Assembly: GCA_024636405.1 (NCBI GenBank) | Contig: JAGXHC010000009.1 | Location: 1 to 10,579, forward strand | From: Sulfitobacter sp. | GTDB lineage: Bacteria > Pseudomonadota > Alphaproteobacteria > Rhodobacterales > Rhodobacteraceae | Length of the DNA stretch: 10,579 nucleotides | Direction of reading: 5' to 3' | In this document: piece by piece, positions 7,424-9,287 of the stretch | Numbering within the stretch: position 1 is the stretch's first letter | Layout of the letters: every line of letters begins with the position of its first letter | Made by a program: the position numbers and the translations under genes | Notes under the pieces: model-generated | Databases searched by the model: none | What the model was told of the DNA's origin: nothing | What the model saw: the letters and a program-made list of their open reading frames with translations, nothing else

Positions 7424-8044
7424 ATGACACGCACCCCGCTTCCTGGCATCCTTGCCATGGCCGCCATCGTTGTGGCCTCGAATATTCTTGTCCAGTTTCT
7501 CTATGGTCAGTGGTTGACCTGGGGCGCCTTTACCTACCCGCTGGCGTTTCTTGTCACCGATGTGATGAACCGCGTCTACGGCGCCGCCGCAGCGCGCCGC
7601 GTGGTGCTGGCGGGCTTCGCCGTAGGGCTCCTGTGTTCGCTGATCGGAACGCAAATCATGGGGGAGTTCGGGCCGCTTGTTACGCTTCGGATTGCCATCG
7701 GTTCGGGGATCGCATTCCTTGTGGCGCAGTTGCTGGATGTGTCGATCTTTGCCGCGATACGCGGTGGTGCGTGGTGGCGCGCGCCGCTTGTCAGCACCCT
7801 GATTGGCAGCAGCGTCGATACGGCACTATTCTTCTCCATCGCATTTTCCGGGGCGCTGTCATTTGTTCATTCAAGCACCGATGTCGCTTGGGCGTCAGAG
7901 GCATTGCCACTGCTGGGCGTTGGTCCGGTTGTCCCGCTTTGGGTGTCATTGGCAGTGGCTGACTGGTCCGTAAAACTGGCGCTGGCGCTGGTCGCACTGA
8001 TCCCTTTTCGGATGATCACATCGCGTCTGAGGCCATCCGCCTGA
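7424..8044 (+). CDS. yhhQ: VUT family queuosine precursor transporter (YhhQ-like, DUF165)
   Basis: A 206-residue membrane protein with about six hydrophobic segments. It matches the E. coli YhhQ pattern at several places: ASNILVQ (18-24), TWGAFTYPLAFLVTD (32-46) with the following NRVYGAAAARRVV, AQLLDVSIF, and WWRAPLVSTLIGSSVDTALFFSIAF. E. coli YhhQ imports the queuosine precursors preQ0/preQ1 for wobble-position modification of tRNAs with GUN anticodons; import of such a deazapurine is inferred here. The ATG at 7424 is the first codon giving the conserved N-terminus; its Shine-Dalgarno is poor (only AAACGG nearby). It lies 90 bp after the phytase-like gene on the same strand and could be the last gene of that operon or have its own promoter. 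No queuosine biosynthesis gene is in the window. Confidence 0.88.
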   Translation: MTRTPLPGILAMAAIVVASNILVQFLYGQWLTWGAFTYPLAFLVTDVMNRVYGAAAARRVVLAGFAVGLLCSLIGTQIMGEFGPLVTLRIAIGSGIAFLVAQLLDVSIFAAIRGGAWWRAPLVSTLIGSSVDTALFFSIAFSGALSFVHSSTDVAWASEALPLLGVGPVVPLWVSLAVADWSVKLALALVALIPFRMITSRLRPSA

Positions 8045-8160
8045 AGCACATCGCACTTGCGCAGCGGCAACACACATTTCCTGCTTGACCTAACGGCAGC
8101 AAAAAAACGCTTTGCAGATTGAAAAACCTGTGCGACGATTCAGGTGATTTCAACAACGGT

Positions 8161-8175
8161 AAGGAGGTGATCCAG
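8161..8175 (+). promoter_or_regulatory. Extended Shine-Dalgarno, 15 nt perfectly complementary to the 16S rRNA 3' end
   Basis: AAGGAGGTGATCCAG is the exact reverse complement of CTGGATCACCTCCTT at the 3' end of bacterial 16S rRNA. The core GGAGG (8163-8167) is 7 bases from the GTG at 8175, an ideal distance. Ordinary Shine-Dalgarno sites pair 4-8 bases, so this pairs well beyond what initiation needs. Confidence 0.8.
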
Positions 8176-8231
8176 TGTCAAGAACGGTATTGGAGCGAGG
8201 TGTCGGAACAGCTTGGGAGGATAGCCGCTAG
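8175..8231 (+). CDS. Candidate 18-residue small protein or leader peptide
   Basis: GTG at 8175, 7 bases after an exceptional Shine-Dalgarno, opens 18 codons ending in TAG (8229-8231). The predicted peptide is MSRTVLERGVGTAWEDSR. It has mixed charge and no signal peptide or transmembrane segment, so a membrane toxin of the Hok/TisB type is unlikely. The stop codon lies in the bulge and stem of a GC-rich hairpin (8224-8244). I do not recognise the peptide. It could be a real small protein, a leader peptide whose translation changes the downstream fold, or a non-functional frame in an RNA whose purpose is ribosome binding. Confidence 0.4.
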   Translation: MSRTVLERGVGTAWEDSR

Positions 8232-8256
8232 GGCAGCCCCCGGCGGTACGAACCCC

Positions 8257-8287
8257 AGGTGGATCGCCGATCTAACCGATCCCACCT
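8257..8287 (+). repeat. Hairpin carrying an SD-like motif in one arm and an anti-SD mimic in the other
   Basis: AGGTGGATCG (8257-8266) pairs with CGATCCCACCT (8277-8287): ten base pairs with one bulged C at 8281 and a ten-base loop. The right arm contains CACCTCC (8283-8289), which is also complementary to GGAGGTG of the Shine-Dalgarno at 8163-8169, so two folds are mutually exclusive. Confidence 0.6.
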
Positions 8288-8304
8288 CCGTAAGCCATTC
8301 GATT

Positions 8305-8335
8305 GGGCCGCTCCGTCAACGGGGCGGCCCTTTTT
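8305..8335 (+). terminator. Strong rho-independent terminator
   Basis: GGGCCGCTCCG (8305-8315) and CGGGGCGGCCC (8320-8330) form an 11-bp stem with one G-T pair and a TCAA loop, followed at once by TTTTT (8331-8335). It has no matching T-run for the other strand, so it serves rightward transcription only. Confidence 0.9.
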
Positions 8336-8347
8336 GATTTCAATACG

Positions 8348-8767
8348 TCAGGATTGCGGCTTAGCCGACTGCGCGTCGTCCAAGATGGGCGCAGCGTGGG
8401 CGTCCAGCGACCGCCACGCCGATATTTCTTCGTCAAATATCTCCGCTTCGACCGGCAGAATGCTCGACAGCCCGTCGATCAGTTCCTGCGCGTGTTCCGC
8501 ACTTCCCACGATCACATAACGCCGCAGGCGGGCTTCGGCTCGGAACCAGGATTTCATGGCTTCCCAGTCAAAGGTATCTGCCGCCTCTGCTGGTGCATAT
8601 CGGTCAAAGGCGATCATCAGATCAACTTGATCGTGCGCGTCAAAGATCCCGTTGAGGTGTTCGGCCAGCGCGTCCATCTCGTCATGGGTGATTGCCCCGG
8701 TCACGCGAAAGGCAATCAGATCGTCACGGCTGGTGCCGATCTGGGTCAGGGAATTGAGGGTCAGCAT
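8348..8767 (-). CDS. SpoIIAA-like (STAS/SEC14-fold) protein
   Basis: A 139-residue cytosolic protein of the SpoIIAA-like family. It shows the usual pattern of the family: an N-terminal strand DLIAFRVTGAITHDEMDAL, a helix, a strand VDLMIAFDRY, a helix around DWEAMKSWFR, then RLRRYVIVGSAEHAQELIDGLSSI followed by a segment rich in acidic residues (EAEIFDEEISAWRSL). These small STAS-like proteins are of unknown function in proteobacteria; the anti-anti-sigma role of Bacillus SpoIIAA should not be assumed. The ATG at 8767 is favoured because AAGGA is 8 bases upstream; the ATG at 8773 would leave only 2 bases and adds MI to the N-terminus. It is divergent from arfB and convergent with the small transcript, whose terminator ends 13 bp from its stop codon. 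Confidence 0.85.
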   Translation of the reverse strand: MLTLNSLTQIGTSRDDLIAFRVTGAITHDEMDALAEHLNGIFDAHDQVDLMIAFDRYAPAEAADTFDWEAMKSWFRAEARLRRYVIVGSAEHAQELIDGLSSILPVEAEIFDEEISAWRSLDAHAAPILDDAQSAKPQS

Positions 8768-8864
8768 GATCATGGTCCTTTTCGGTGGGGGCTATCCCCT
8801 TGGGACCAAACGCCCCTTCACCCCGGCGCGTTCCAATGCGATGCTGGGCGCGAAAGGGGGCAGG

Positions 8865-9287
8865 ATGCTGCATATTACCGACAATGTCGCAATACAGGAC
8901 TGGGAACTGACGGAAAACTTCGTTCGGTCCTCCGGACCCGGCGGACAAAACGTCAACAAGGTCTCAAGCGCCGTTGAACTGCGATTCGAAGCGGCATCTT
9001 CGCCATCGCTTTCCGGGCCGGTTAAGTCGCGGCTGAAACGGCTGGCGGGCCGCCGCTGGACGCTGGAAGGCGCGCTGATTATTCAATGCGAAGAGACCCG
9101 CAGCCAGGCGCGTAACCGCGACATCGCACGCGACAGGCTGGCAGAGCTTATCAAAAAGGCACTGACCCCGCCCAAACGCCGGATCCCCACCCGACCCACG
9201 CTGGGGTCCAAGAAACGGCGTCTGAAAGAAAAGAAGGTGCGCGGTGAGGTCAAGGCGATGCGCGGAAAAGTCGATCCGGGCACCTGA
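8865..9287 (+). CDS. arfB: Alternative ribosome-rescue factor ArfB (peptidyl-tRNA hydrolase, YaeJ)
   Basis: A 140-residue protein, the same length as E. coli ArfB. Residues 21-35 read RSSGPGGQNVNKVSS with the catalytic GGQ at 26-28, shared with class-I release factors. The Lys/Arg-rich C-terminal tail, with RRIPTRPTLGSKKRRLKEKK and VKAMRGKV, matches the family's tail that enters the empty mRNA channel of stalled ribosomes. It hydrolyses peptidyl-tRNA on non-stop ribosomes, backing up tmRNA. The ATG at 8865 aligns with the family N-terminus (MLHITDNVAI) and has AAAGGGGG upstream, about 4 bases away; the frame is open further upstream but that part has no family similarity. The gene is divergent from the SpoIIAA-like gene and ends 10 bp from the stop of cobF, with both stop codons inside one hairpin. 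Confidence 0.95.
   Translation: MLHITDNVAIQDWELTENFVRSSGPGGQNVNKVSSAVELRFEAASSPSLSGPVKSRLKRLAGRRWTLEGALIIQCEETRSQARNRDIARDRLAELIKKALTPPKRRIPTRPTLGSKKRRLKEKKVRGEVKAMRGKVDPGT

Follow-up and report, generated by a model that had tools for sequence, protein, structure and literature searches.

A small CC2171-related RNA with a conserved complement of the 16S rRNA tail: a putative messenger gated by free 30S subunits

Described relatives and the present RNA

CC2171 (RF01867) is typed by Rfam as a small RNA (sRNA) gene of Caulobacter and other Alphaproteobacteria. In the available excerpts of two papers, the Mesorhizobium RNA MH_s33 is assigned to RF01867 (PMC5596092) and CC2171 stands in the Rfam 15 table of revised structures (PMC11701678), and no study of what it does turned up in the excerpted literature under CC0, CC BY and CC BY-SA licences. 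Here, we describe a locus in a 10,579-nucleotide stretch of Sulfitobacter sp. DNA (the window, meaning the whole stretch analyzed), where a 15-nt Shine-Dalgarno (SD) sequence, AAGGAGGTGATCCAG (8161-8175, + strand), is by sequence comparison the exact complement of the 3' tail of 16S ribosomal RNA (rRNA). The region that contains it, 8151-8335, is best read as a self-contained small messenger RNA (mRNA) that is distantly related to the CC2171 sRNAs (Table 1).

A permissive Rfam scan of the window returned one significant match, to RF01867 at 8151-8331 (47.1 bits, E 6e-9), with all other families at E >=0.13. Since the window does not reach the CC2171 gathering score of 75, we regard the RNA as a diverged relative and not as a member by Rfam's own test. 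Among its Rhodobacterales relatives, an assignment that here rests on record titles and peptide type, 17 of 20 match CC2171 at E<=0.01, all with 27.9-49.2 bits; the Rfam threshold thus misses the RNA in the window and in the 20 relatives scanned. The gathering score was passed by 5 of 18 scanned loci (Rhodobacterales among the 18), all five of the VSHC-peptide type. The 5' block CAACAA-N-GAAAGGAGGUGAUCCAGUGUC, which includes the SD, is common to the window and CC2171, as are a similar length and the same position of the terminator, and the window aligns across all 159 model positions (1-159). Many pairs of the consensus helices are marked as non-standard in this alignment, which also carries a 29-base insert. 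However, the open reading frame (ORF) of the window is different, two helices described below (P1 and P2) are missing from the Rfam consensus structure, and the neighboring genes differ where looked at. The match to BjrC80 (RF02354) is weak, covers part of the RNA, and is not significant (19 bits, E 0.13).

Leader-peptide attenuators of the rnTrpL class combine a short ORF, a structured leader, and an intrinsic terminator, all of which are found in the present RNA, but the latter has no supported antiterminator, no constant cis gene in other orders, and a maximal SD. rnTrpL is mentioned in the available part of PMC10117765. Pos19, a coding sRNA of Rhodobacter sphaeroides, is similar in that a short transcript carries a translated ORF and has a Rho-independent terminator; it differs in that its ORF has 150 nt, mutation of its SD leaves some translation, and a 16S-tail complement is not described in the excerpted text (PMC5036791). 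According to excerpts on Staphylococcus aureus (PMC13009471), an SD-anti-SD helix longer than the canonical one affects initiation there through two extra pairs in ordinary mRNAs, whereas the present RNA offers 13-15 nt, predicted to be sequestered, in one dedicated RNA.

Conservation of the 16S-pairing site and of the reading frame

A preliminary description of this DNA had claimed that the 15-mer is perfectly complementary to the 16S 3' end, and the match is exact against the 16S ends of a relative, Roseobacter sp. GAI101 (G001). G001 contains the 13-mer AAGGAGGTGATCC three times: two copies continue into AAGGAGGTGATCCAGCCGCAGG, which is antisense to the 16S 3' end (16S recognized by eye), and the third is the orthologous RNA of the present feature (locus L097). 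Within the window, AAGGAGGTGATCCAG is unique at up to 3 mismatches, with 0.15 occurrences expected from shuffles. That a match of this length is not due to chance was also borne out, as AAGGAGGTGATCCANTG, the exact match with an NTG start, occurs in 29/289 genomes of the class of G001, while the reversed control pattern gave 0. Two details needed amending. The GTG begins at 8175, on the last base of the 15-mer, and the reported spacing of 7 bases is its distance from the GGAGG core; placing the site in an intergenic region was incomplete, as an RNA gene, complete with a terminator and an ORF of 18 codons, occupies this region.

We trained a covariance model on 30 of 34 listed Rhodobacterales copies, each taken from its start codon on, and the model therefore lacks the SD. 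Only such SD-less searches are informative here, because loci fetched by pattern were required to carry a 17-mer and say nothing on its conservation. In the family of G001, 127/149 genomes have a match at E<=1e-3, which lies below 1e-10 in 121 of these genomes (every genome sample in this study includes its own starting genome), and 119 of the 121 strong matches were fetched, with G462 and G560, at contig ends, excluded. The 14-mer AAGGAGGTGATCCA stands exactly and immediately before the start codon in 70/119 copies; a further 34, 7, and 3 copies have one, two, and three mismatches, respectively, and in the remaining 5 it is shifted or more divergent. Almost all single mismatches (31/34) replace A by G at -5 and so retain a G-U pair with the 16S U, and at least 14 consecutive pairs with the 16S tail (G-U allowed) are formed in 104/119 copies. 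When the 3 copies that overlap the training set are removed, 67/116 have the exact 14-mer and 101/116 have at least 14 pairs. Conservation is 95-100% at -15 to -1, except for 61% at -5, and in the flank it is a mixed 33-86% at -24 to -16 and 30-46% at -40 to -25; of these sequences, only the part upstream of the start codon is independent of the retrieval model.

A second SD-less model, trained on 29 of 34 listed VSHC-type copies, matched 42/120 genomes of the order of a Brevundimonas at E<=1e-3, of which 14 were excluded as partial, terminator-only, or weak matches. AGGAGGTG is found in 28/28 of the full-length matches (E<=4e-6; one of them, L295, is locus L108 of the training set), 27 times as AAGGAGGTG, its position agreeing to within 1 nt, and these copies form at least 12 consecutive 16S pairs in 26/28 and 10 pairs in two. 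Together, these comparisons support selection on the 15-mer as a 16S-pairing site, as far as sequence conservation can tell.

The ORF that follows the 15-mer has 18 codons in 112/119 copies. Codon 19 is a stop in 112/119 (TGA in 55, TAG in 44, and TAA in 13), is something else in 7, and is TGG in 0. For codons 2-12, the synonymous fraction of single changes is 0.48 compared to 0.27 expected, with changes counted over sequences and not over events, and the other two frames are near expectation (0.24 and 0.19 vs 0.23). In frame 0, an excess of synonymous changes is missing from codons 13-18 (0.26 vs 0.35 expected). In frame 2, the same codons show an excess of 0.62 vs 0.38 expected, perhaps an effect of RNA structure. 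ORF length is also narrow among pattern-fetched copies of other branches, with 14 codons in 8/8 Bradyrhizobium-type copies and 21-26 codons in 42/45 VSHC-type and 22/26 MSSE-type copies, and all three stop codons are used in these branches. Selection on the reading frame and its stop is present, given the fixed position of the stop and the interchange of the three stop codons; judging from these patterns, the short ORF is under selection and probably translated.

These results bear on a further proposal of the preliminary description, namely that the site was selected for tight ribosome capture rather than for plain initiation. Selection on 16S pairing stood up: when close relatives were checked for loss of the 15-mer, the site proved to survive in most copies, with 15/119 keeping a core of 9-10 bases only. 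Capture instead of initiation did not, because the 15-mer precedes a real ORF of fixed length. An open ribosome trap is likewise at odds with an SD that is predicted to be hidden within two helices.

A predicted lock on the ribosome-binding site and its competing readings

In the predicted fold, the ribosome-binding site would be locked twice, with the SD core paired to a mimic of the 16S tail before the terminator (P1) and the remaining SD and the GUG held in a start-codon hairpin (P2). The SD core was hidden in 34/34 singly folded Rhodobacterales copies, with an unpaired probability of 0.00-0.10 (two of the 34 copies are short at the 3' end). A 7-base complement of the SD core (G-U allowed) stands before the terminator in 105/113 copies vs 20% in mononucleotide shuffles, and when the SD is shifted by one base, this falls to 46% or 35%; the P1 3' strand reads CATCTCC, CACCTCC, or CGCCTCC in 91/113 copies. 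For P2, 92.8% of cells are paired in 89 distinct sequences, as opposed to 36-49% when the pairing is slid; 0/500 shuffles reached its covariation score of 0.180 (slid at most 0.107). All four in-register copies with an ATG or TTG start have the matching P2 partner. We also scored the SD against each copy's own downstream RNA with dinucleotide shuffles as the control (102 sequences, those without a detected terminator dropped), and p<=0.05 was reached in 14/32 sequences of the Rhodobacterales class and 16/25 of the VSHC class, where the best site is not always P1 and the classes, set by peptide start, are imperfect (L079 and L150 landed in the Rhodobacterales class).

Across 114 sequences, the predicted cost of freeing the SD and start codon averages 9.8 kcal/mol, and the predicted mean duplex energies are -23.9 kcal/mol for the 13-nt free tail, -9.2 for AGGAGG, and -11.5 for AAGGAGGU. 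With these model energies, the opening cost is exceeded by the 13-nt duplex in 114/114 sequences, by AGGAGG in 54, and by AAGGAGGU in 84. The energies suggest that the unusual length of the SD is matched to the lock, and in this model, the long pairing is better read as a key that opens it.

We consider a translated RNA switch gated by free 30S subunits to be the likeliest mechanism, at somewhat better than even chances. A free 30S subunit would open the lock by pairing its entire 13-nt tail with the SD, at about -24 compared to about 10 kcal/mol to open, while a 6-nt SD core would merely break even. The opened RNA would then be translated for 18 codons to the conserved stop, and the anti-SD-like 3' strand would meanwhile be freed. 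Such an RNA would report the supply of free 30S subunits, and a neighboring gene, arfB, which encodes an alternative ribosome-rescue hydrolase, may tie it to ribosome rescue. The SD, lock, ORF, stop, terminator, and neighborhood find support in the sequences, and we infer that 30S subunits open the RNA, as well as its signal and its output. A hidden near-maximal SD in a natural RNA would provide a ready-made test of the purpose of extra SD pairing. Should the RNA indeed read 30S supply, the translation machinery itself would have an RNA sensor, present in 127/149 sampled genomes of one family, and the arfB neighborhood would make a concrete prediction on ribosome rescue. A bolder version, which we hold to be unlikely, makes the RNA a dedicated sensor of free 30S subunits, opened by the complete 16S tail only. 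Holding of the tail would block SD-led initiation and favor leaderless mRNAs, including that of neighboring arfB, so that rescue would be made when initiation is unbalanced, and the device (full 16S-tail complement, tiny ORF, and terminator) would recur in Alphaproteobacteria, Planctomycetota, and Myxococcota.

Several observations weigh against a lock opened by 30S subunits. The strongest single SD duplex of the window is the one with 8259-8274 and not P1, and it is absent from the predicted fold. Changes in P1 are one-sided only, because the SD core never varies. Two-sided changes in P2 (4/9 pairs, 9 cells) are equaled by the slid controls (2-5 pairs, 3-11 cells); the evidence for P2 is the share paired and the score, and double changes alone prove nothing. 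In the same shuffle test of SD pairing, we obtained 4/23 for the MSSE class, 0/5 for the Bradyrhizobium type, 0/2 for Devosia, and 1/15 for "other" sequences at p<=0.05; with this last count, no SD lock was seen outside Alphaproteobacteria, and SD sequestration as a universal feature was rejected. The 15/119 copies with 9-10 consecutive 16S pairs indicate that the SD extension is not indispensable, and P2 rather than 16S could explain the conservation at -4 to -1. Four elements (ORF, P2 3' strand, stop, and terminator) are part of the retrieval model, which biases retrieval toward copies that conserve them. As for arfB, 531 nt and a convergent gene separate it from the RNA in the window, it was found outside Rhodobacterales-type loci in L044 and L109 only, and a TANNNT box stands 6-7 nt before its ATG in 15/49 loci, with one case at any other spacing tested.

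The RNA could instead be a cis-acting attenuator leader of arfB, in which the ORF is translated and the terminator stops transcription when ribosomes are free, while trapped ribosomes lead to read-through that makes the rescue factor. A short translated ORF with a terminator is the classical anatomy of such a leader, and arfB lies downstream on the same strand in 53/58 loci, at no more than 334 nt from the start of the short ORF in 48 of these, and begins 14-53 nt behind the terminator in 29/52 loci with a measured gap (window included in both counts). However, the TANNNT box would give arfB its own promoter and a leaderless mRNA in the loci that carry it, the window has the intervening convergent gene, and other orders show mixed downstream genes and strands, as judged by crude ORF calls. 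The sole antiterminator candidate, GGCAGCCC paired with the terminator arm, is among the most stable stretches, but it was rejected as the own arm is better than others in 49/113 only, a weak test given that the arms are much alike. We find this attenuator improbable. An ordinary small-protein gene, with the peptide as its product and the strong SD serving only to secure translation, is also not probable in our view, since codons 13-18 lack an in-frame synonymous excess, the peptides vary between branches, and a strong SD hidden in two helices is an odd route to expression.

We give a smaller chance to a trans-acting sRNA, whose CRYCUCC strand would be an anti-SD seed that is masked by the RNA's own SD, freed on translation of the ORF, and then used to repress mRNAs. 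The three strand variants that make up 91/113 copies agree with this, and anti-SD motifs are described as seeds in Alphaproteobacteria, in excerpts on SisA-D (PMC12559287) and on CCUCCUCCC loops (PMC3927594). On the other hand, the motif is predicted to be paired with the RNA's own SD and not single-stranded, its common variants are those allowed by SD pairing, and VSHC-branch copies mostly lack CCUCC before the terminator, as judged by eye. A chance match or a stray 16S fragment has in its favor the sequence identity to antisense 16S and nothing else. That identity ends after 15 bases, no Rfam family, those for rRNA among them, reaches its gathering score in the window, 16S pairing is retained in 104/119 copies, and the reversed-pattern controls are all zero; conservation already refutes this reading, and we put its probability close to nil.

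Neighboring genes and distribution

Table 1. Positions of the RNA, its parts, and the adjacent genes in the window
Feature	Position	Strand	Basis or remark
yhhQ, queuosine precursor transporter (TIGR00697, PF02592)	7424..8044	+	upstream neighbor
Promoter-like stretch CTTTGC ... GTGCGACGAT	8110..8139	+	likened to relatives' TTTTGAC-N-CTGTGNCANNCT upstream block
RNA gene body	8151..8331	+	full-length match to Rfam RF01867 (CC2171), 47.1 bits
15-nt SD	8161..8175	+	complement of 16S 3' tail CTGGATCACCTCCTT; sequence and conservation
P1 5' strand GGAGGTG (SD core)	8163..8169	+	predicted fold
P2 5' strand TCCAGTGTC of start-codon hairpin	8171..8179	+	predicted, comparative
18-codon ORF, GTG ... TAG, peptide VSRTVLERGVGTAWEDSR	8175..8231	+	sequence and relatives; stop 8229-8231
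P2 3' strand GGTATTGGA of start-codon hairpin	8186..8194	+	predicted, comparative
Conserved GGCAGCCC	8232..8239	+	directly 3' of stop codon; possible terminator-arm partner, without covariation support
Alternative SD partner GTGGATCGCCGATCTA	8259..8274	+	predicted, -17.6 kcal/mol; 2/100 shuffles as strong
P1 3' strand CACCTCC (16S anti-SD mimic)	8283..8289	+	before terminator; pairs with SD core in predicted fold
Intrinsic terminator hairpin, then TTTTT	8305..8330	+	predicted
SpoIIAA-like gene	8348-8773	convergent	between RNA and arfB
arfB, alternative ribosome-rescue hydrolase (NF006718)	8865..9287	+	downstream, same strand

The promoter-like stretch was proposed by eye from the upstream sequences of 60/119 relatives, and a sigma-70 scan found no promoter at 8110..8139. 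At 8232-8239, GGCAGCCC is similar to the terminator 3' arm and conserved.

Upstream of the RNA, yhhQ was found in 29/30 relatives with flanks and, among the at least 116 loci fetched by pattern, at 30 that all belong to the Rhodobacterales class. The order yhhQ, RNA, arfB (7424-9287 in the window) is nearly fixed in Rhodobacterales-type loci, with the SpoIIAA-like gene as an extra in the window. An SD-like motif precedes arfB in only 13/49 loci, and where the TANNNT box is present, arfB may be leaderless with its own promoter. In two Hyphomonadaceae loci, arfB is near but divergent, about 0.15 and 1.0 kb off. Downstream genes and strands are mixed in other orders, where ORFs were picked by length and GC3, a crude procedure, and on these calls, a cis-leader of one conserved gene across clades was rejected. 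Neighbors elsewhere include RNase R (Bosea), divergent RF3 (Microvirga), FlaF and ExoD (Brevundimonas), taurine dioxygenase, gamma-glutamyltransferase, and others. At the Microvirga locus L078, prfC (release factor 3) is divergent and its longest ORF starts 43 nt before the short ORF's start; the upstream ORF ends of L100 and L114 are similar. RNase R follows the RNA in a Bosea locus (L017), and L020 has the same ORF start. No transfer-messenger RNA was found nearby in 60 loci scanned.

A scan with AAGGAGGTGATCCARTG, with one genome per species, gave at least 116 loci. Most are Alphaproteobacteria by record title, Phycisphaerales, Myxococcota, and others make up smaller groups, and a tiny ORF follows the pattern nearly everywhere (<40 codons in 108 of 114 counted loci). 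The exact match with an NTG start was found in 6/149 genomes of the phylum of a Phycisphaerales genome, and with GTG in 9/111 of the phylum of a Myxococcales genome and in 1/119 of that of an Acidobacteria genome, with 0 for the reversed control in each. As the sole match in Acidobacteriota is the starting genome, spread in this phylum was rejected. Viral spread was rejected as well, as the 10 viral contigs with the 19-mer resemble host DNA carrying the RNA (5) or unrelated phage genes (5), as judged by eye. A plasmid search with 246 bases gave no match.

Phycisphaerales and Myxococcota loci (L008, L018, L023, L069, L084, L093, L067, and L271-L279) have their own versions, in which the 15-mer and start are identical, the ORFs have 11-20 codons, and the hairpins are different; several of the Myxococcota peptides contain TAGEVV. 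In four further loci (L063, L104, L036, and L126, from Azospirillum, a Geminicoccaceae metagenome-assembled genome, and another genome), the SD stands before ORFs of 57-59 codons that, by eye, resemble small secreted proteins.
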